Positions 32,932-40,986 of a stretch of DNA of 64,000 nt are shown one piece after another. Source of the DNA: Myxococcales bacterium. GTDB lineage: Bacteria > UBA10199 > 2-02-FULL-44-16 > JAAZCA01. Below the pieces are notes generated by a model. That model did no database searches. It was not told the DNA's origin and saw only the letters and a program-made list of their open reading frames with translations. Position numbers and translations under genes: made by a program. The stretch's first letter is position 1. Every line of letters starts with the position of its first letter. The stretch lies in contig JAAZCA010000036.1 in NCBI GenBank assembly GCA_012513515.1, positions 1 to 64,000 of the forward strand, read 5' to 3'.

Positions 32932-33720
32932 CTAGCTATCCATGAGGCACAGCGGGCGGCCGGTTTGAGGATCCTGCATAGTTCTAACCTCGGTTTGAAA
33001 TGTGGCTGCCAGCCTGTCGGACCTTATGGTTTCTTGCGGAGGTCCATCGGAGATTATCCGGCCATCGCGCATAAGCAGTATTCTGGAGCAAAGCGCAGAT
33101 GCGAAATTTATGTCGTGTGCTGCGATGATAACCGTCATGCCGAGTTGGTCTCTAAGTTTTGCGATCGTTTTTCTCAGTGCAGAAAGATGTCCTATGTCGA
33201 GAAATGTGGTCGGCTCGTCCATGATGAGCGCTTTGGGCTGCTGGGCGATAGCTCTTGCGAGAAAGACGCGTTGGCGTTCACCGCCGGAGAGTTCTGATAT
33301 ATCTCGATTTGCGAGCTCTTCACAGTTGACCATCTTCATGGCACCCAGAGCGGTTTCTATATCTAATTTCGATTCGAAACCAGTTGCCGGAATGTGAGGG
33401 GCCCTGCCCATTAATACCGTTTCGAGGGCTGTTATCGAATATGCTATTGAAGGGCTCTGTGCGACAAAGGCTATTTTTTTTGCGCGCTCGCGGCATGTCA
33501 TTTTGCGATTCGGCTTTCCAAATAGGAGAATTTCACCTGATGATGGCTTCCTATTTCCGGCGATAAGCGAAAGCAGTGTGCTCTTCCCAGCTCCGTTAGG
33601 GCCGAGGACCCCCAGCAGTTCGCCGGGCGAGACCGCGAAGGAGACCGTATCTACTGCCATTCTGTTTCCGTAGCTGAATGATATTTCTCGTATATCGAAT
33701 GCCGTCGTATTTTCAGGCAT
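32932..33720 (-). CDS. btuD: Cobalamin ABC transporter, ATPase
   Basis: A 262-residue ABC ATPase of the iron-siderophore/B12 importer group. Walker A is GPNGAGKSTLL, the Q-loop is in FVAQSPSIAY, the signature is LSGGERQRVFLARAIAQ and Walker B is ALIMDEPTTFLD, with the switch His in AAHDINFA. The family alone does not separate B12 from haem or siderophore transport; the riboswitch and btuB in the same operon do. It overlaps btuC by eight bases and is the last gene of the operon. Confidence 0.93.
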   Translation of the reverse strand: MPENTTAFDIREISFSYGNRMAVDTVSFAVSPGELLGVLGPNGAGKSTLLSLIAGNRKPSSGEILLFGKPNRKMTCRERAKKIAFVAQSPSIAYSITALETVLMGRAPHIPATGFESKLDIETALGAMKMVNCEELANRDISELSGGERQRVFLARAIAQQPKALIMDEPTTFLDIGHLSALRKTIAKLRDQLGMTVIIAAHDINFASALCSRILLMRDGRIISDGPPQETIRSDRLAATFQTEVRTMQDPQTGRPLCLMDS

Positions 33721-34714
33721 GGCTCTTCCCCATGTTTTTTCTGAGAAGTATCATGAACAGAGGTGCGCCTATAAGTGCCGTTATTACGCCGACTGGCAGC
33801 TCAGTGGCGTAGTCGGAGTTGGAAAGTATCGTTCTTGCGATAGTATCTGCCAAAACCAGAAATGCTGCGCCGGCGATTCCGGAGGCCGGGATCAATAGGC
33901 GGTTGTCGGCGCCAAGGGTCAGGCGGACTATGTGCGGCACGAAGAGCCCTACGAAACCTATGAGTCCGGATGCCGCAACGGCCGCCCCAACCATAACCGA
34001 CGAACATACGAAGACCGCAGCGCGTATCCTGGAAGGATCGACTCCTACCGATCTCGCCTCGTCGTCTCCGAGCATAAGGATGTTCATTCTTCTTGCGAGA
34101 AGGGAAAGGATTATGAGCCCTGGAATTACCAGCGCCGCTGTTATCGCTACCAGCCCCAGCCCCATCTCTTCGAGATTTCCTATTAGGAGGAAGAGGATCT
34201 GATACGCCTCCTCCATGGTCACCATGGCGTTGATGAAGAGTATCAGCGCAAAGCAGAAGGCGTTGAAGATCACCCCGGTGAGCATCAGTTCGGTGGAGCG
34301 AAAGGAACTTCGCACCCTGGAAAACCACATGATTGCTATCATCGAGAGCATTGCGCCTAAAAATGCGGCTCCAGAGATCCATGCGAATGGAAGCCTGAAA
34401 CCCAGTGCGGCGATGCTGCCTAGTGCAGCGCCTCCTGATACTCCTAGTATGAATGGGTCAGCCAGAGGATTTTTTAGAAGAGTTTGAAATGCTCCACCTG
34501 ATGAAGCTAGAGCCATCCCGACGATGGCTGCAAGTAGGACCCTCGGGAGCCTCGCTCCCAACAGTATGTCGCTGCCAGCTCCGCCGAGAAGCGCTTCAAA
34601 GATATCTACCGATCCGCTGCCATGCGACAGGCCAAAATAAATCGCCGCGAGAAGCAGCACAGTAAGGATCGATATCGAAAACAAAAACTTCTTTTTTGTA
34701 AGGTACGATTTCAT
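33713..34714 (-). CDS. btuC: Cobalamin ABC transporter, permease
   Basis: A 333-residue FecCD/BtuC-type permease with about ten membrane helices. Recognisable are LGARLPRVLLAAIVGMALASSGGAFQTLLKNPLADPFILGVSGGAALG and GLIGFVGLFVPHIVRL, of which the conserved cores are RLPRVL, NPLADP and GFVGLFVPH. It works as a dimer with BtuD. The start overlaps the btuF stop by four bases. Confidence 0.94.
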   Translation of the reverse strand: MKSYLTKKKFLFSISILTVLLLAAIYFGLSHGSGSVDIFEALLGGAGSDILLGARLPRVLLAAIVGMALASSGGAFQTLLKNPLADPFILGVSGGAALGSIAALGFRLPFAWISGAAFLGAMLSMIAIMWFSRVRSSFRSTELMLTGVIFNAFCFALILFINAMVTMEEAYQILFLLIGNLEEMGLGLVAITAALVIPGLIILSLLARRMNILMLGDDEARSVGVDPSRIRAAVFVCSSVMVGAAVAASGLIGFVGLFVPHIVRLTLGADNRLLIPASGIAGAAFLVLADTIARTILSNSDYATELPVGVITALIGAPLFMILLRKNMGKSHA

Positions 34715-35550
34715 CTTTCTCCGTGTATAACCCTCGCCAGATTTTCCAGAGCGTCAGGTAGGCGTGGTCCGGGGCGAAAATCGTCAGCGTTCATTATGTA
34801 TATCCTGCCGCGCTTGTACGCATCGCAATTTTTTATCTTGCTCCACGCCTCTTCCGGGGTGTGCGCCTCGCTTCCCATCGACAGGTCCACTATGAAATCC
34901 GGATTCGCTGTTAGTATATCTTCCACCCCTATTCTGGGGTAGGGCACAGAAGATTTCTTCGCGGCGTTTTCAACTCCTATAGATGAAAGGAGCGTGCCCA
35001 TATACGAGATATCGCCAGCGGCTATGATGGGCCTTCTTCCCCATATTATGAATCCTTTTTTTTGGGGAGCGCTGCTCCACCTCTTTTTGAGTTCAATAAA
35101 CTCCTTCTTTATTTGAAGCGCAACTGCATCGGCGGATTTTTTCATTCCTATAGTTGCGCCTATTGCCGAGATGGATGAAACGATTTCATCGGGAGTGCTG
35201 AATGAAAAAAAACTCGTTTTTATTCCGAGGCTTTCCATTTTTTCGAATGATCTTCTGCTGGAGTTTTCCTCCGAATTCAGGACGACATCCGGGCGCAGCG
35301 CGACTATTTTTTCGATCATAGGGCGGGTGTAGTCACCTACGATCTGCGGTCTATTTTCCAGAGCTTCCAGTTCGCAGTATTTCGTCGCCCCGACGATCAT
35401 ATCTCCGGCTCCTATCGCGATCAGTGTGTCAGTGATCACCGGCTTCAGCGATACGATTCGCTTCGGCATCTCGTCGTTCGAAAATAGGTTTTGCGAAGAG
35501 AGGGAAGCTATAATCACGAATGTGATTAACACCCCTTCCTTGATTTTCAT
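34711..35550 (-). CDS. btuF: Periplasmic cobalamin-binding protein
   Basis: A 279-residue class III solute-binding protein with a signal peptide (about 1-24) and no lipobox. The two lobes are joined by a rigid helix; RIVSLKPVITDTLIAIGAGD and RPDVVLNSEENS are typical of the N-terminal lobe, and GVEDILTANPDFIVDLS of the C-terminal lobe. By family and position it hands B12 from the outer membrane receptor to BtuCD. It lies one base after the 445-residue lipoprotein gene. Confidence 0.91.
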   Translation of the reverse strand: MKIKEGVLITFVIIASLSSQNLFSNDEMPKRIVSLKPVITDTLIAIGAGDMIVGATKYCELEALENRPQIVGDYTRPMIEKIVALRPDVVLNSEENSSRRSFEKMESLGIKTSFFSFSTPDEIVSSISAIGATIGMKKSADAVALQIKKEFIELKKRWSSAPQKKGFIIWGRRPIIAAGDISYMGTLLSSIGVENAAKKSSVPYPRIGVEDILTANPDFIVDLSMGSEAHTPEEAWSKIKNCDAYKRGRIYIMNADDFRPGPRLPDALENLARVIHGER

Positions 35551-35551
35551 T

Positions 35552-36889
35552 TCAGTTCATCCCTGAGAGATCAACCTCATATATAGCACCGCCCATCGAT
35601 GCATCGGTCGCCGTTTGATATAATACTCCGTCAAATATCGTAGCGGGGCCGGGGTTTGCAGGGAGTTTTGTTTCTACGGTTCCATCCCATCCATCTTCGG
35701 CGGTGTTGAAAAAGATTACTTTGCCTGTGCTGCCAAAGAGGCCGAAATCCGATGCCGCTGCGACATTTCCGAAAATCTGCAGGGATGATATGAAACTTTC
35801 AACTTCGCCAAGCTCCAGTTTGAAAATCCTATCTCCGCTTTGTGCGTCAATCCCCGCCACCGCGTTCGAAGGCTTTTGCAGGCCTACGAGGATGGCTCCA
35901 TCCTGCGATATTGGCATCTCAGGGCTTATTATTCCTGTGAGAGGTCTTCTATCGTCAGATGCCATCGTGTGCGATATTTTATCTCCAGAGGGGAATGAAA
36001 ATATATCAACCGAAAGTTGCGTTTTTTGGTTGGGGTTAAATCCGTTTGAACAGAGAACAGCCAGCTTGTCTGAATCCATGGGTGCTACAGCGGTCGGGTT
36101 GATCCCTCCCGTGTAGTATGCAGTTGATGCGTCATGGACTACCGCTCCGAAACCATCGTATGGGAAGCAGATCAGAGTCCCTTCGTTGTGAGTGCTCTTT
36201 AATGGGTCCATGTCGATATGATCCATATTGGATGTCACGATGCAAACGTTGTCCTTTATAAGGGCAGCTCCCGAGGGCATGTTGGGTAGAAAAGCGAGAG
36301 GCTTTCCATTTTTATCGGCGATATATTCTTTCGAGAAAATGACTTCATCAGATATCTTTCGACTGACATCGTTTATCAGGACGAATCCATCAGGAGAGGA
36401 TCTCGTTATAAGGTGATATCCGCCGGAAAGTATCACGTGGTTCGATGGGCGACCGTCGAACTCTTCGAACGATTTCCATGGGGAATTAACACCCCCTATC
36501 AGCGACCTTTCCTGCAGAGAACCCTTGGTTGTTTCGCAGGTGACAAATACCTTCTGTGACTCATCATCTATTCTGATGCTTGCAGGAAAACCGCATGGCA
36601 ATTCGGAAAACAGATTTGCCATGGGTGGAGTTGGAGCTGCTGGTTTAGTTATCTCGGTTAATCCGTCTAAATAATCGATGATGTCGCCAAACGATATCTC
36701 TTTTGAAACTTCCGAAGTTTCCGCGTGGGTTACCAGTTCGTCTCTGATTTTGTCTGTCGGGTCCTGATGGTGAGACAGATCCATAGGTCGGTCAACGTCT
36801 GTGACAGCATCGACTTCCTTATCGATAACATCGTTTTTTACCGGGCGCGGTGCTGGTGAACATCCCCAAAGAAAACCTGCTGATAACAT
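35552..36889 (-). CDS. Unassigned lipoprotein, beta-propeller-like, in the B12 operon
   Basis: A 445-residue predicted lipoprotein: a very short signal peptide ending at a lipobox FLWGC (Cys10), then a charged, Asp/His-containing linker (about 12-60) that would hold the folded part away from the membrane. The body has repeated beta-type segments of the YVTN/quinoprotein kind (GGYHLITRSSPDGFVLIND, DSDKLAVLCSNGFNP, AVAGIDAQSGDRIFKLELG, NVAAASDFGLFG), consistent with a propeller. AAGGAGG precedes the ATG at 36889. It lies between a second lipoprotein and btuF and is cotranscribed with them, so a role in binding corrinoid at the outer membrane is likely but inferred. I do not recognise the family by sequence. 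Confidence 0.75.
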   Translation of the reverse strand: MLSAGFLWGCSPAPRPVKNDVIDKEVDAVTDVDRPMDLSHHQDPTDKIRDELVTHAETSEVSKEISFGDIIDYLDGLTEITKPAAPTPPMANLFSELPCGFPASIRIDDESQKVFVTCETTKGSLQERSLIGGVNSPWKSFEEFDGRPSNHVILSGGYHLITRSSPDGFVLINDVSRKISDEVIFSKEYIADKNGKPLAFLPNMPSGAALIKDNVCIVTSNMDHIDMDPLKSTHNEGTLICFPYDGFGAVVHDASTAYYTGGINPTAVAPMDSDKLAVLCSNGFNPNQKTQLSVDIFSFPSGDKISHTMASDDRRPLTGIISPEMPISQDGAILVGLQKPSNAVAGIDAQSGDRIFKLELGEVESFISSLQIFGNVAAASDFGLFGSTGKVIFFNTAEDGWDGTVETKLPANPGPATIFDGVLYQTATDASMGGAIYEVDLSGMN

Positions 36890-36901
36890 AACTCCTCCTT
36901 T

Positions 36902-38815
36902 TTAGTTTTGGATTTCTCCGTTTACGACCGATATGGCGTCGAGATCGAAGCCGGCTACCGGTTTTGATCCCGTGCTCTTGCGGTCTTTGATTTTTATGTA
37001 ACGAGCCCGTGCGACTCCGATTTCCGACAGATCGAATGCATTGCCTCCCGCGAGGTCAGGATCGAAGGGGCTTATTCCGTTTTTGGAATTTGAATATACC
37101 GGCATCGATCCGGCGCATCCATCGTATGGGTAAGCGGATGTGTCGCATGGGAATGCCTTGAAATTTATTCCGTCTGCGCTGACTTCAACCGATGCCAGTT
37201 CAGCGAAGGGGGCGTTTTCATCCCCTCCGATATAGAATGCGTTTTCAAATATTATGAAATCAGCGCCGGGGCCGTCTACCGCGTGGCAATTGCCGAGGTC
37301 CAGCGTGATACTGCCGTTTTTGCCCAGGCTTAAAACATCCAGGCCTCCTGCGAGCGCGCCATTTCCCTGTGGCGGGCCAAGGACAATATCTGGAAATTTA
37401 TCCTGCCCAAACCCCGCATCGTATCCGTATTTGACCGATCTGACTGCCTGTGCAAATCCCTGACAGGAATCTCCGTCATTTCCTTCCGGGGGGGGCGGAG
37501 GGTCGAAGCTTTCGCTATCCCCAGATTGTTCGTTCGGCAGATATCTCTTTGCAGGTGCATCGCTATAAACTGCCACGAGCGTCCCCGGATATCCGGTAAG
37601 GATGAAGAGATCGGGCCCTTCGTAGTCGATTCCTCTGGTGCCGGGGCGGACCGCGATCGGGCCTGCTCCGGTGTTTGCACCGGTGGGATTTTCCGTGGTT
37701 ACTTCGGAGGAATAGCCTACAACTATCGGGTCCTTCACTTCAGGGTTTGCAATATCGGATATGTCGACCGGATAAACAGCGCTTTTTTCAAAGCTTGCTA
37801 TGAAGATGTGGCTATTGTCCTGAGAGAGCTTTACATCCGTCATATAGTCGCTTTCATCCGTTATCATCAGCGGGTTATTTTTTCCTCTAAGGACGGAGAT
37901 ATTTATGAGGTCTATCTCATAGACTTCTCCAAACGCAGATGACCCGACAAATGCCAGAGATCCGTCTATGGTCACGGCCGCAGCATGAAATGATGCAGCA
38001 ACCTGTCCAAGCGGGATGCTTCCGGTTATCTCCATCGTTTCCGGGTCGGCGATATCTATTACGGAATCGGTTGCAGGAACTGATTCCGCATTTATGATAT
38101 TGATGACGCCGGAATTTGTTATTATCAATTCTTCTCCATTTCGCACCGAGAGCCCCGTTGGGTTAAATGCGCTCGTGACTATTATACCTGCGTCGATCAT
38201 CGATCCGCCCGACTTAATATCGAACGCTCGAACGATTCCTGGAGCGGCAACAGCCGGGTTTGTGGTGTTGATGTAATTCGACATGGCTACAAATATCCTG
38301 TCGCCGATTCTTGCTATTCCGGATGGAAAATTCGGAGTTATCTTCTCATCCGACGAAGTTCCGTCCGAGTTTCTATGGTCTTTCCCTATTTCCACATCCG
38401 AAAGGAGATTTGTCCTAGAGTGGACTCTTCCGGTTTTAGGGCTGAAGCGTATCAACGAATTCGAGGTGGTCAAGAACGCATCATCCTGGGATGAAATCAG
38501 CAGCTTCGAGGGGATTCCGGATCCATTCGGCGATATCAATCCTTGAAATTTCGAGGACACCTTCATCGTGTCGGCATTTATATCCACGGCTATTACTCCT
38601 GCAGGGGATGATGTGCTCACTATGAACGCGGTCGAATCCATCCCTTTGATATCCGGTATTACGATGTCGGATGGAAAATCGCTGGATAAAATAAATGATG
38701 GCGGCGCGAGAGATTCATCTTCATTTGGAGGAGGCCTGCTCTCTATCTCGCTGCTCCCGCAGGCGATCAAAAGCGTAAAAAAGATCACCGGTAAAATTCG
38801 AATATTCTTTTTCAT
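36902..38815 (-). CDS. Unassigned large lipoprotein with propeller-like and C-terminal surface domains, in the B12 operon
   Basis: A 637-residue lipoprotein (lipobox LLIACGSS, Cys19). Residues about 45-415 form YVTN-type repeats (SPAGVIAVDINADTMKV, FPSGIARIGDRIFVAMSNY, NPTGLSVRNGEELIITN, HAAAVTIDGSLAFVGSSAFGEVYEIDL). A Pro-rich linker (DPPPPPEGNDGD, about 445) leads to a domain of about 180 residues containing GSITLDLG, GADFIIFENAFY, ASVEVSADGINF and GFDLDAISVV. To my knowledge this last pattern resembles a domain in Bacteroidetes cell-surface proteins encoded near B12 transporters; this is from memory and unverified. AGGAGAT precedes the ATG, ten bases after btuB. Role inferred: surface corrinoid capture. 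Confidence 0.78.
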   Translation of the reverse strand: MKKNIRILPVIFFTLLIACGSSEIESRPPPNEDESLAPPSFILSSDFPSDIVIPDIKGMDSTAFIVSTSSPAGVIAVDINADTMKVSSKFQGLISPNGSGIPSKLLISSQDDAFLTTSNSLIRFSPKTGRVHSRTNLLSDVEIGKDHRNSDGTSSDEKITPNFPSGIARIGDRIFVAMSNYINTTNPAVAAPGIVRAFDIKSGGSMIDAGIIVTSAFNPTGLSVRNGEELIITNSGVINIINAESVPATDSVIDIADPETMEITGSIPLGQVAASFHAAAVTIDGSLAFVGSSAFGEVYEIDLINISVLRGKNNPLMITDESDYMTDVKLSQDNSHIFIASFEKSAVYPVDISDIANPEVKDPIVVGYSSEVTTENPTGANTGAGPIAVRPGTRGIDYEGPDLFILTGYPGTLVAVYSDAPAKRYLPNEQSGDSESFDPPPPPEGNDGDSCQGFAQAVRSVKYGYDAGFGQDKFPDIVLGPPQGNGALAGGLDVLSLGKNGSITLDLGNCHAVDGPGADFIIFENAFYIGGDENAPFAELASVEVSADGINFKAFPCDTSAYPYDGCAGSMPVYSNSKNGISPFDPDLAGGNAFDLSEIGVARARYIKIKDRKSTGSKPVAGFDLDAISVVNGEIQN

Positions 38816-38825
38816 TCGATATCTC

Positions 38826-40796
38826 CTATATCCCTGCTCCGAGAGTTACCCAGTAACTCCTGCGAGGGAGAGGAAATCCCCTTGCATCGTATATCTGCAC
38901 GTTGGTCACGTCCCTGACCTCGGCGGTAGCAAAGAAATGCTTTGCGAATTTCACAGTGGTTCCCAGATCTATTGCTGTATGCTGCGAGATCCAAACCGTG
39001 TTTGATGTATTGGATGGAAAGGATCCGATGTAGTGCAGCGTGCCGAAAAGGATCACTGGTTTTATCGTTCCGCGTACGCCTACGTTCAACTTGTGTTCAG
39101 GCCTTCCCGGCAATCTAAGCCTTCCTCCGGCGAATTTTGCATCCATCCATGAATAGTTTGCTTCCAGGTGAAGCTGCTTAACAGGATCCATGCTGATGCC
39201 AACCTCGACGCCATTCGTGATGGCCTTGTTCGTATTGACAGGCTCGATCGTAGTGGCGGAGATCGGTACGAAGATGATCTGATTCTCGATTCGATTCTGA
39301 AAAAAGGAAAATTCGAGGCTCACGTACTTTGGGCCTATTATGAATCCGGCATCGAAGTTTAGTGAATGTTCGTCTTTCAGTCGCGGGTTTCCACGCAGAT
39401 ACCCCTGGTCTGGATAGTACAGTTCGGAAAAATTTGGGTATCGGTATGCGGTCTGGACGTTTGATTTTAGAGTCAGCCATGGCAGCGGTTTCCCCGACAA
39501 TCCGACGCGCCAGCTCGCCCGAAATTTCCTGGAGGTTGCCTTCTCCAGACGTATCTGAGGAGATAGTATAAGCCTGTCGCCGAGAAATCCGACCACCTCT
39601 TCCAGAAAAAATGTGCCGGTATTCCGGGTATGGCTTCCCATGGTAGGGGTGGATGGTATCGGCGAGAGATCTTTTGCGTGATCGAATCTGTATTGTCCTC
39701 TTGCGGTGGATGCTAAATTTATACTGCGCCACGATGCGATGTGCATGACCTGCGCGTGCGCCTCCGGCGTGTAGCTTATGTAGGTCACGTCTATAGGATT
39801 TCCTATTGCAGGAGTGGGGTCCTTGAAATGGTCGTCATCGAAGAAGAATGTCGCGCCGCTTTGAAAGGAGAGCGGATCCATGAAAAATTTTTCAATTTCA
39901 AAGAGTACGTTAGATGTGTTTCGAAATATCTCCTGTTTGGCTTCCAGAGGATTTGTCGGGCTAAGCAGGGTGGTTTCTTCCTCCATCCCGGGAACTTCTC
40001 TATTCGTCCAGAAAAAGTCATTTGCTAGCGATATCTTCGTATTTTCAGAAAGCCTGATCCTTCCTTTGACGAGTACATTTTCGGCTATCGAACGGTTGTT
40101 TTCACGAGTCAGCGTCCTTGAAGCGCCGATTCTTCCTCCTGCCATGTTTACCGCCGCAGTTTTGAAGGTGAAGTCTCCCGCGGTAGACCTGTGGCTGTGC
40201 GCTAGAGTCATATCTCCGTTTTTAAATGGTTCCGACCAGGATTCGGCGGTCTTGAGAGTTAGGAAGGATCCTCCGGTCAGCTTTACATCGATGGAACGCT
40301 TGTCATGTGCTTCTTTGGTGACGATGTTGATCACCCCGCCTATGGCGTCGGTGCCGAAGCGCGCCGACGTCGCTCCGCGTATAACCTCGATTCGTTCTAT
40401 GGCATCTAGAGGGATTGTGGAAAAATCCACTGCGCCGAAGGTGGAAGAGTTGAGCCTGACACCATCGACAAAAACCGCAACCTGCTCCGCTGATGAGCCT
40501 CGTATAGATACGGTAGAGAGTTGTCCTTCGCCGCCGAGATTTGTCACGTCGACTCCGAGAGTTTCAGAGAGGATCTCTGAGGTGGTCTTCGACTGGTCGA
40601 AGTATTTGTCAGGTTTTATGATTGTAGCGAATGAGCCGGTGCTTTCGAGAGATTCGTATTCGTTTCTCCCCTTTATCTGGATTTCGCCGATGTCGGCGCT
40701 ATCGCTTGCCTTCGAGGGCAGAGGTGCGCACAGGAGAAGGATCAAAAAAATAAACCTCCTCCGCTGGAGAAGGTTTTGTGTGAAGCGAGGCTTCAT
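38826..40796 (-). CDS. btuB: TonB-dependent cobalamin receptor
   Basis: A 656-residue outer membrane receptor. After a signal peptide (about 10-30, ending near SKASD) comes a possible TonB box region (ADIGEIQIKG) and the plug with ILSETLGVDVTNLGGEGQL, VSIRGSSAEQVAVFVDGVRLN and IERIEVIRGATSARFGTDAIGGVINI, close to BtuB. The 22-strand barrel follows and contains the late motif RNVTNVQIYDARGFPLPRRSY (pattern DVTNxxYxxxxGYPxPGR) before a short end. The start at 40796 follows GAGGGAG; the frame extends 56 codons upstream through the riboswitch and is not used. No tonB, exbB or exbD is in the window. Confidence 0.93.
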   Translation of the reverse strand: MKPRFTQNLLQRRRFIFLILLLCAPLPSKASDSADIGEIQIKGRNEYESLESTGSFATIIKPDKYFDQSKTTSEILSETLGVDVTNLGGEGQLSTVSIRGSSAEQVAVFVDGVRLNSSTFGAVDFSTIPLDAIERIEVIRGATSARFGTDAIGGVINIVTKEAHDKRSIDVKLTGGSFLTLKTAESWSEPFKNGDMTLAHSHRSTAGDFTFKTAAVNMAGGRIGASRTLTRENNRSIAENVLVKGRIRLSENTKISLANDFFWTNREVPGMEEETTLLSPTNPLEAKQEIFRNTSNVLFEIEKFFMDPLSFQSGATFFFDDDHFKDPTPAIGNPIDVTYISYTPEAHAQVMHIASWRSINLASTARGQYRFDHAKDLSPIPSTPTMGSHTRNTGTFFLEEVVGFLGDRLILSPQIRLEKATSRKFRASWRVGLSGKPLPWLTLKSNVQTAYRYPNFSELYYPDQGYLRGNPRLKDEHSLNFDAGFIIGPKYVSLEFSFFQNRIENQIIFVPISATTIEPVNTNKAITNGVEVGISMDPVKQLHLEANYSWMDAKFAGGRLRLPGRPEHKLNVGVRGTIKPVILFGTLHYIGSFPSNTSNTVWISQHTAIDLGTTVKFAKHFFATAEVRDVTNVQIYDARGFPLPRRSYWVTLGAGI

Positions 40797-40832
40797 GCGC
40801 TCCCTCTTTCCGCGAAGAGTTGCAGCTTGAAA

Positions 40833-40986
40833 ATGCGGCGCAAGGTTTCCTGGCTTCGAGGGGATCTCTTTTTGCCTCGCCTTCCCGCCCCGCGGTAGGC
40901 GGGACAGTGACTTGCGGCAGAAGGGTGTTCCTCTTACAGTGGCGGGACCGCGCGGGATTTTCACCCGGCTTCCCTTGAACGTCGAA
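40833..40986 (-). promoter_or_regulatory. Cobalamin (AdoCbl) riboswitch
   Basis: On the minus strand, directly before btuB, the leader contains GGGTGAAAATCCC, then GCGGTCCCGCCACTGTAA, later AAGTCACTGTCCCGC, GGGAAGGCGAG, and finally GAAGCCAGGAAACCTTGCGCC: the conserved elements of the B12 riboswitch in order. Ligand binding would shut down the whole operon btuB-lipoproteins-btuFCD. Boundaries are approximate. Confidence 0.95.

Follow-up and report, generated by a model that had tools for sequence, protein, structure and literature searches.

The closest described systems are those of Bacteroides thetaiotaomicron. In its BtuG1, a BtuH domain is joined to a BtuG propeller (PMC10404256); the protein has since been renamed BtuGH, and each of its domains separately binds cobalamin (PMC12751083). 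BtuGH (BT_1490, found with BtuB1) is a lipoprotein with an N-terminal seven-bladed propeller and a C-terminal H domain, encoded beside btuB under a cobalamin riboswitch. BtuG2 and BtuG3 (3DSM, 8BAI, 8OKV) are also seven-bladed propeller lipoproteins adjoining btuB, and in BtuH2 (BT_1956, 7BIZ) a B12-binding jelly-roll follows N-terminal PKD/Ig domains. BtuG has been reported to be "exclusively found among the Bacteroidetes" (PMC6143338), and in the open-access literature we found nothing linking BtuG or BtuH to the Myxococcota or to the phylum of the genome studied here.

We have analyzed a window of 64,000 nucleotides, the whole stretch of DNA examined, from a small deltaproteobacterium-like bacterium, that carries on its minus strand an operon most probably devoted to B12 scavenging with a BtuGH-like outer-membrane capture protein, whose binding of B12 and exposure at the surface are predicted. 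The initial annotation had described one cobalamin riboswitch heading btuB, two lipoprotein genes (here LP1 and LP2), btuF, btuC and btuD. The riboswitch, the genes in this order and their tight spacing were all found, with intergenic gaps of +10, +12, +1, -4 and -8 bases from btuB through btuD. The features are the following:

41013-40826, minus strand: cobalamin riboswitch aptamer RF00174 (cmscan 79.6 bits, E 5.8e-18)
38826..40796, minus strand: btuB, TonB-dependent corrinoid receptor (656 aa from ATG; Pfam TonB plug and barrel)
40744..40776, minus strand: terminator-like hairpin and T7 run, located within btuB (20-52 bases into the gene)
36902..38815, minus strand: LP1, BtuGH-like lipoprotein of 637 aa (lipobox LIAC, G after Cys19)
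37562..38698, minus strand: propeller (G-like) domain of LP1, residues ~40-418 (AF2 model, pLDDT 93.0)
36917..37456, minus strand: H-like jelly-roll domain of LP1, residues ~454-633, predicted to bind B12 (AF2 model, pLDDT 95.8)
37235..37261, minus strand: motif D519-x(3)-F523-E524-N525-x-F527, predicted phosphate/nucleotide-loop site (from conservation)
35552..36889, minus strand: LP2, second propeller protein of 445 aa (related to the LP1 propeller by iterated HMM)
34711..35550, minus strand: btuF, periplasmic corrinoid-binding protein (Peripla_BP_2, E 5e-27; best NCBIfam PRK03379 BtuF, below cut-off)
33713..34714, minus strand: btuC, inner-membrane permease (FecCD, E 1e-80; best NCBIfam BtuC, below cut-off)
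32932..33720, minus strand: btuD, ABC ATPase (ABC_tran, E 2e-34; NCBIfam matches not specific to BtuD)

The riboswitch is the only RF00174 copy in the 1.79 Mb genome and lies directly upstream of the btuB operon. The long GTG start of btuB (40964) falls within the riboswitch, and the gene likely starts at the ATG at 40796, preceded by AGAGGGAG. Just inside the coding region, the hairpin (AAACCTTCTCC-AGC-GGAGGAGGTTT-ATTTTTTT), also seen in the RNA fold, suggests an attenuator of the riboswitch, i.e., transcription attenuation. A comparable strong hairpin was found in one distant relative (G005, L060). It is missing from most relatives, and attenuation by such a hairpin was rejected as a trait of the whole phylum. 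In another genome (G002; L088, contig C12) we detected a cobalamin riboswitch and no LP1 or BtuB relatives; the genes downstream of it on the same strand code for leucyl-tRNA synthetase and DNA polymerase III delta.

LP1 reproduces the plan of BtuGH. In the AF2 models a seven-bladed propeller is followed by a jelly-roll of ~190 aa (residues ~446-637), so that the earlier description of this protein as propeller-like holds for the first domain and not for the second, separate one. Since the jelly-roll matches BtuH2 and also BtuG1 in its H domain, and the propeller profile matches BtuG, LP1 has the architecture of BtuGH, and both proteins are encoded beside btuB under a cobalamin riboswitch. LP1 differs from BtuGH in belonging to another phylum, in sharing with it ~16-18% identity, in having btuFCD within its operon, and in an H domain that is more compact (~190 vs. 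~250 aa) and contains a conserved cysteine pair. The lipobox of LP1, LIAC followed by G, is good, and Cys19 is unchanged in 10 fused homologues. Lipoboxes had been assigned to both middle genes; the invariant Cys19 bears this out for LP1, but not so the very short and uncharged signal peptide of LP2.

A profile built from 26 relatives of the propeller, compared with PDB chains, placed the BtuG structures 8BAZ, 8BAI and 3DSM on top (E 1.3e-4 to 1.5e-4), the next chain appearing at E 0.059. Foldseek gave BtuG3 (8OKV) as rank 1, with many BtuG chains among the top 26. When ranked by structure alone, hydrazine synthase and RACK1-type propellers lead, equalling or beating BtuG. Judged by its sequence, the LP1 propeller is BtuG-like, pure structure giving no separation from generic propellers. 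The Pfam family of BtuG, PF16819 (DUF5074), had no match at E<1 in LP1 or LP2 and none anywhere in the genome, and matched the riboswitch-locus propellers of two relatives (L084 and L065) only below cut-off. This family is not decisive for BtuG membership because it also matches outside Bacteroides, in E. coli and Methanosarcina. Other Pfam identities for LP1 and LP2, for example SBP56, were discarded as sub-threshold noise.

Folds foreign to known corrinoid binders, combined with a lack of btuB co-occurrence in related genomes, had been named beforehand as evidence against the capture reading, and for LP1 the outcome was the opposite. Its C-terminal domain has BtuH-type domains, those of BtuH2 and BtuG1, as its best structural matches. 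In VIA-align the top alignment was with 7BIZ, the jelly-roll of BtuH2 (Z 13.3; chain 314-593; 154 residues aligned at 2.9 A and 16% identity), followed by 8BLW_B, the H domain of BtuG1/BtuGH (Z 12.9, chain 392-660). All remaining chains reached Z values of 9.8 or less, ~3 units below. Where BtuH2 has PKD/Ig domains before the jelly-roll, LP1 has instead the propeller. Neither the H-like profiles (40 and 87 rows) nor the full LP1 profile gave a hit in the PDB; because no sequence profile reaches BtuH, the link between the two rests on structure. No Pfam family was found among the 87 H-like domains. The DUF4465/BtuJ family, also a jelly-roll B12 binder of B12 loci, is by profile different from the H-like domain, and was rejected as its identity: PF14717 matched none of the 46 genomes of the phylum, with a positive Bacteroides control. 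The BtuJ structure 9FCT was absent from the structural matches listed, which is uninformative.

The jelly-roll fold is common to many carbohydrate-binding domains, and LP1 might be an accessory of the B12 locus whose jelly-roll recognizes a glycan, or some other ligand at the surface, in the manner of CBM32 or discoidin domains, rather than a corrinoid. By plain Foldseek E-value the F5/8-type and CBM32 carbohydrate-binding domains indeed come first, with 8BLW_B at rank 4 and 7BIZ outside the top 50, and many of them reach Z 8-9.8. However, both B12 binders outscore every other chain by more than 3 Z units and align over more residues (154-156 vs. mostly 120-150 in the others), and a glycan ligand hardly accounts for the linkage of this domain to cobalamin riboswitches in two phyla, described below. 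We consider the glycan reading unlikely.

The H-like domain contains a conserved motif, predicted to be a phosphate/nucleotide-loop site. D519, F523, E524 and N525 are present in 87/87 H-like homologues and F527 in 80 of them (92%). In BtuH2, Asn399 contacts the phosphate of B12 and Phe401 the lower ligand (PMC8941943). We infer that N525-x-F527 is equivalent to Asn399-x-Phe401, an equivalence of spacing and not of residue alignment; from the whole BtuH contact set (Asn399, Phe401, Gln333, Tyr510, Trp511, Trp577 and His476) the comparison takes only the N-x-F spacing. Plasmids, phages and viral contigs provided no Bacteroidetes homologue for an alignment of residues.

Within the phylum, 40 of 46 genomes contain relatives of LP1 and its H-like domain. 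This domain is found, in 30 of the 40 cases, on the same strand as a cobalamin riboswitch and downstream of it by no more than 6 kb; the other cases are mostly at contig ends. The btuB gene adjoins the LP1 relatives in most of the riboswitch-linked loci, across most families of the phylum. The domain appears either fused to a propeller or as a separate neighbouring lipoprotein, with at least two changes between both states in the family (four is the best figure), a repeated switching that sets it apart from BtuGH. Five distant families (f14, f17, f18, f20 and f21; loci L077, L078, L079, L080, L082, L083 and L084) have a riboswitch operon with propeller and H-like lipoproteins and without btuB, BtuB-like receptors being found on other contigs; in them, capture proteins and receptor seem to be uncoupled, a point that counts against the reading favoured here.

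We extended the search in a genome-wide scan that detected 455 relatives of the H-like domain, those kept being mostly from Myxococcota. A cobalamin riboswitch was present in 48/50 genomes with H-like relatives, again mostly Myxococcota, and of the 44 Myxococcota loci scanned, 32 had one preceding the H-like gene in the same orientation, as a rule at a distance of no more than ~3 kb. Given that there are one to few riboswitches per genome of several megabases, this closeness is far beyond chance. Co-occurrence with btuB and B12 riboswitches in related genomes is seen in Myxococcota as well as throughout the phylum. In Myxococcota the domain can stand alone. In Myxococcus xanthus AM003 (L169, 6451-8573), a second cobalamin riboswitch precedes two lipoprotein genes, the first propeller-like with a TEPDAG repeat spacer and the second H-like.

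The second lipoprotein of the operon presents a different picture. LP2 starts with MLSAGFLWGC (36860-36889, minus strand) with an in-frame stop just upstream, which leaves the short signal peptide mentioned above; its relatives carry ordinary ones, e.g., MAMVQDICAGLAMGVALGLGGC. It was found in 8/46 genomes of the phylum with 32% mean column identity, far less conserved than LP1. LP2 is a fast-evolving propeller, its signal peptide being doubtful. Its profile matches hydrazine synthase and YncE propellers first in the PDB, and its identity as a BtuG was rejected. Of the comparable outer-membrane B12 capture module initially proposed, the part concerning LP1 is supported by its BtuH-fold domain, BtuG-like propeller sequence and linkage to btuB and the riboswitch; a part for LP2 in capture is putative. 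Elsewhere in the phylum (G008; L094, 6710-9826, contig C16) we found two tandem LP2-like propeller genes outside the B12 locus, with long spacer regions.

These properties of LP2 bear on a second alternative, in which BtuB and BtuFCD alone import B12, while LP1 and LP2 reside in the periplasm or have a structural role and have only their regulation in common with the transporter. E. coli needs no such lipoproteins, and besides the atypical signal peptide of LP2, the signals known for export to the surface are not applicable to this genome: the export signal of Bacteroidetes (LES) is not expected outside that group. Against this, LP1 stays beside btuB in most families, its lipobox cysteine is invariant and its domain architecture equals that of BtuGH, which makes import by BtuB and BtuFCD alone decidedly unlikely as the full account of the operon.

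The names of the transport genes reflect best matches plus gene context, and that of btuD the context. The best NCBIfam for BtuB was TIGR01779 (TonB-B12), with 180.8 bits vs. a cut-off of 599.7, and TonB_C proteins are encoded in the genome. On the demand side, the corrin-ring marker CbiC was found in none of the 46 genomes of the phylum and proteins with B12-binding domains in 45. From the absence of the former and presence of the latter, the phylum seems to subsist on corrinoids that it scavenges; as CbiC is a single marker, the evidence is strong but not complete. That the receptor carries another tetrapyrrole, a metal chelate or a siderophore, competing with or replacing B12, would fit scores for BtuB, BtuF, BtuC and BtuD that are all under the equivalog cut-offs and the matches of related siderophore families, but it is most improbable given that the best family matches are a B12 receptor, BtuF and BtuC and that the genome uses B12, without CbiC and with no second riboswitch-controlled uptake locus.

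We favour, then, B12 scavenging by an operon that would work like BtuBGH, with which it shares architecture, fold and regulation; binding of B12, exposure at the surface and a complex with BtuB are predicted by this likeness. When cellular B12 is low, the riboswitch would permit expression of the operon. LP1 would be lipid-anchored in the outer membrane with two predicted corrinoid sites, its propeller placed as a lid over the mouth of BtuB. The H-like jelly-roll may capture scarce corrinoid and pass it to the propeller, in this presumed order, and LP2 probably assists as a second propeller. BtuB, with TonB, would import the corrinoid across the outer membrane, BtuF would ferry it through the periplasm and BtuCD would deliver it to the cytoplasm.

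Outside these two phyla, we have found a resemblance to the LIC_13355 family lipoprotein of Leptospira (NF033170), which 84 of the 87 H-like domains match weakly (best E 2.7e-15); the domain of LP1 itself scores 42.7 bits, far under the 120-bit cut-off. LIC_13355 has been studied only as a binder of host components (PMC11891782), and it is not known to have a link to B12. The riboswitches reported in Leptospira are at other loci, in front of LIC12374/btuB and LIC20135 (PMC3953431). LIC_13355 is a predicted corrinoid binder. We propose tentatively, giving it a chance a little short of even, that the H-like domain is an unnamed and widespread corrinoid-capture domain outside Bacteroidetes, with more than 450 relatives, mostly in Myxococcota and the phylum studied here and nearly always in the company of a cobalamin riboswitch, repeatedly fused to and separated from BtuG-like propellers, and reaching as far as LIC_13355, which would then bind corrinoids rather than act chiefly as an adhesin.

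All this suggests that the distribution of BtuGH-type B12 capture is much wider than the gut bacteria from which it was originally reported. To our knowledge, BtuH has been studied only in Bacteroidetes. Should LP1 prove to bind B12, the design of BtuGH would be used also by environmental bacteria with small genomes and no corrin-ring pathway, and by myxobacteria, and a function would be provided for a domain that has no Pfam entry, is present in hundreds of genomes and otherwise receives no better annotation than unknown lipoprotein. It would also supply new parts for corrinoid sensing and purification, and a direct means of testing to what extent communities beyond the gut are shaped by B12 scavenging.

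Variants of the H-like genes were also seen. Two loci (L108 and L118; Corallococcus, Myxococcaceae) each combine two cobalamin riboswitches with two tandem H-like lipoprotein genes. One H-like protein (L080, 1130-2626) has an N-terminal Big_2 Ig-like domain, a layout resembling the Ig/PKD-plus-B12-domain arrangement of BtuH2.
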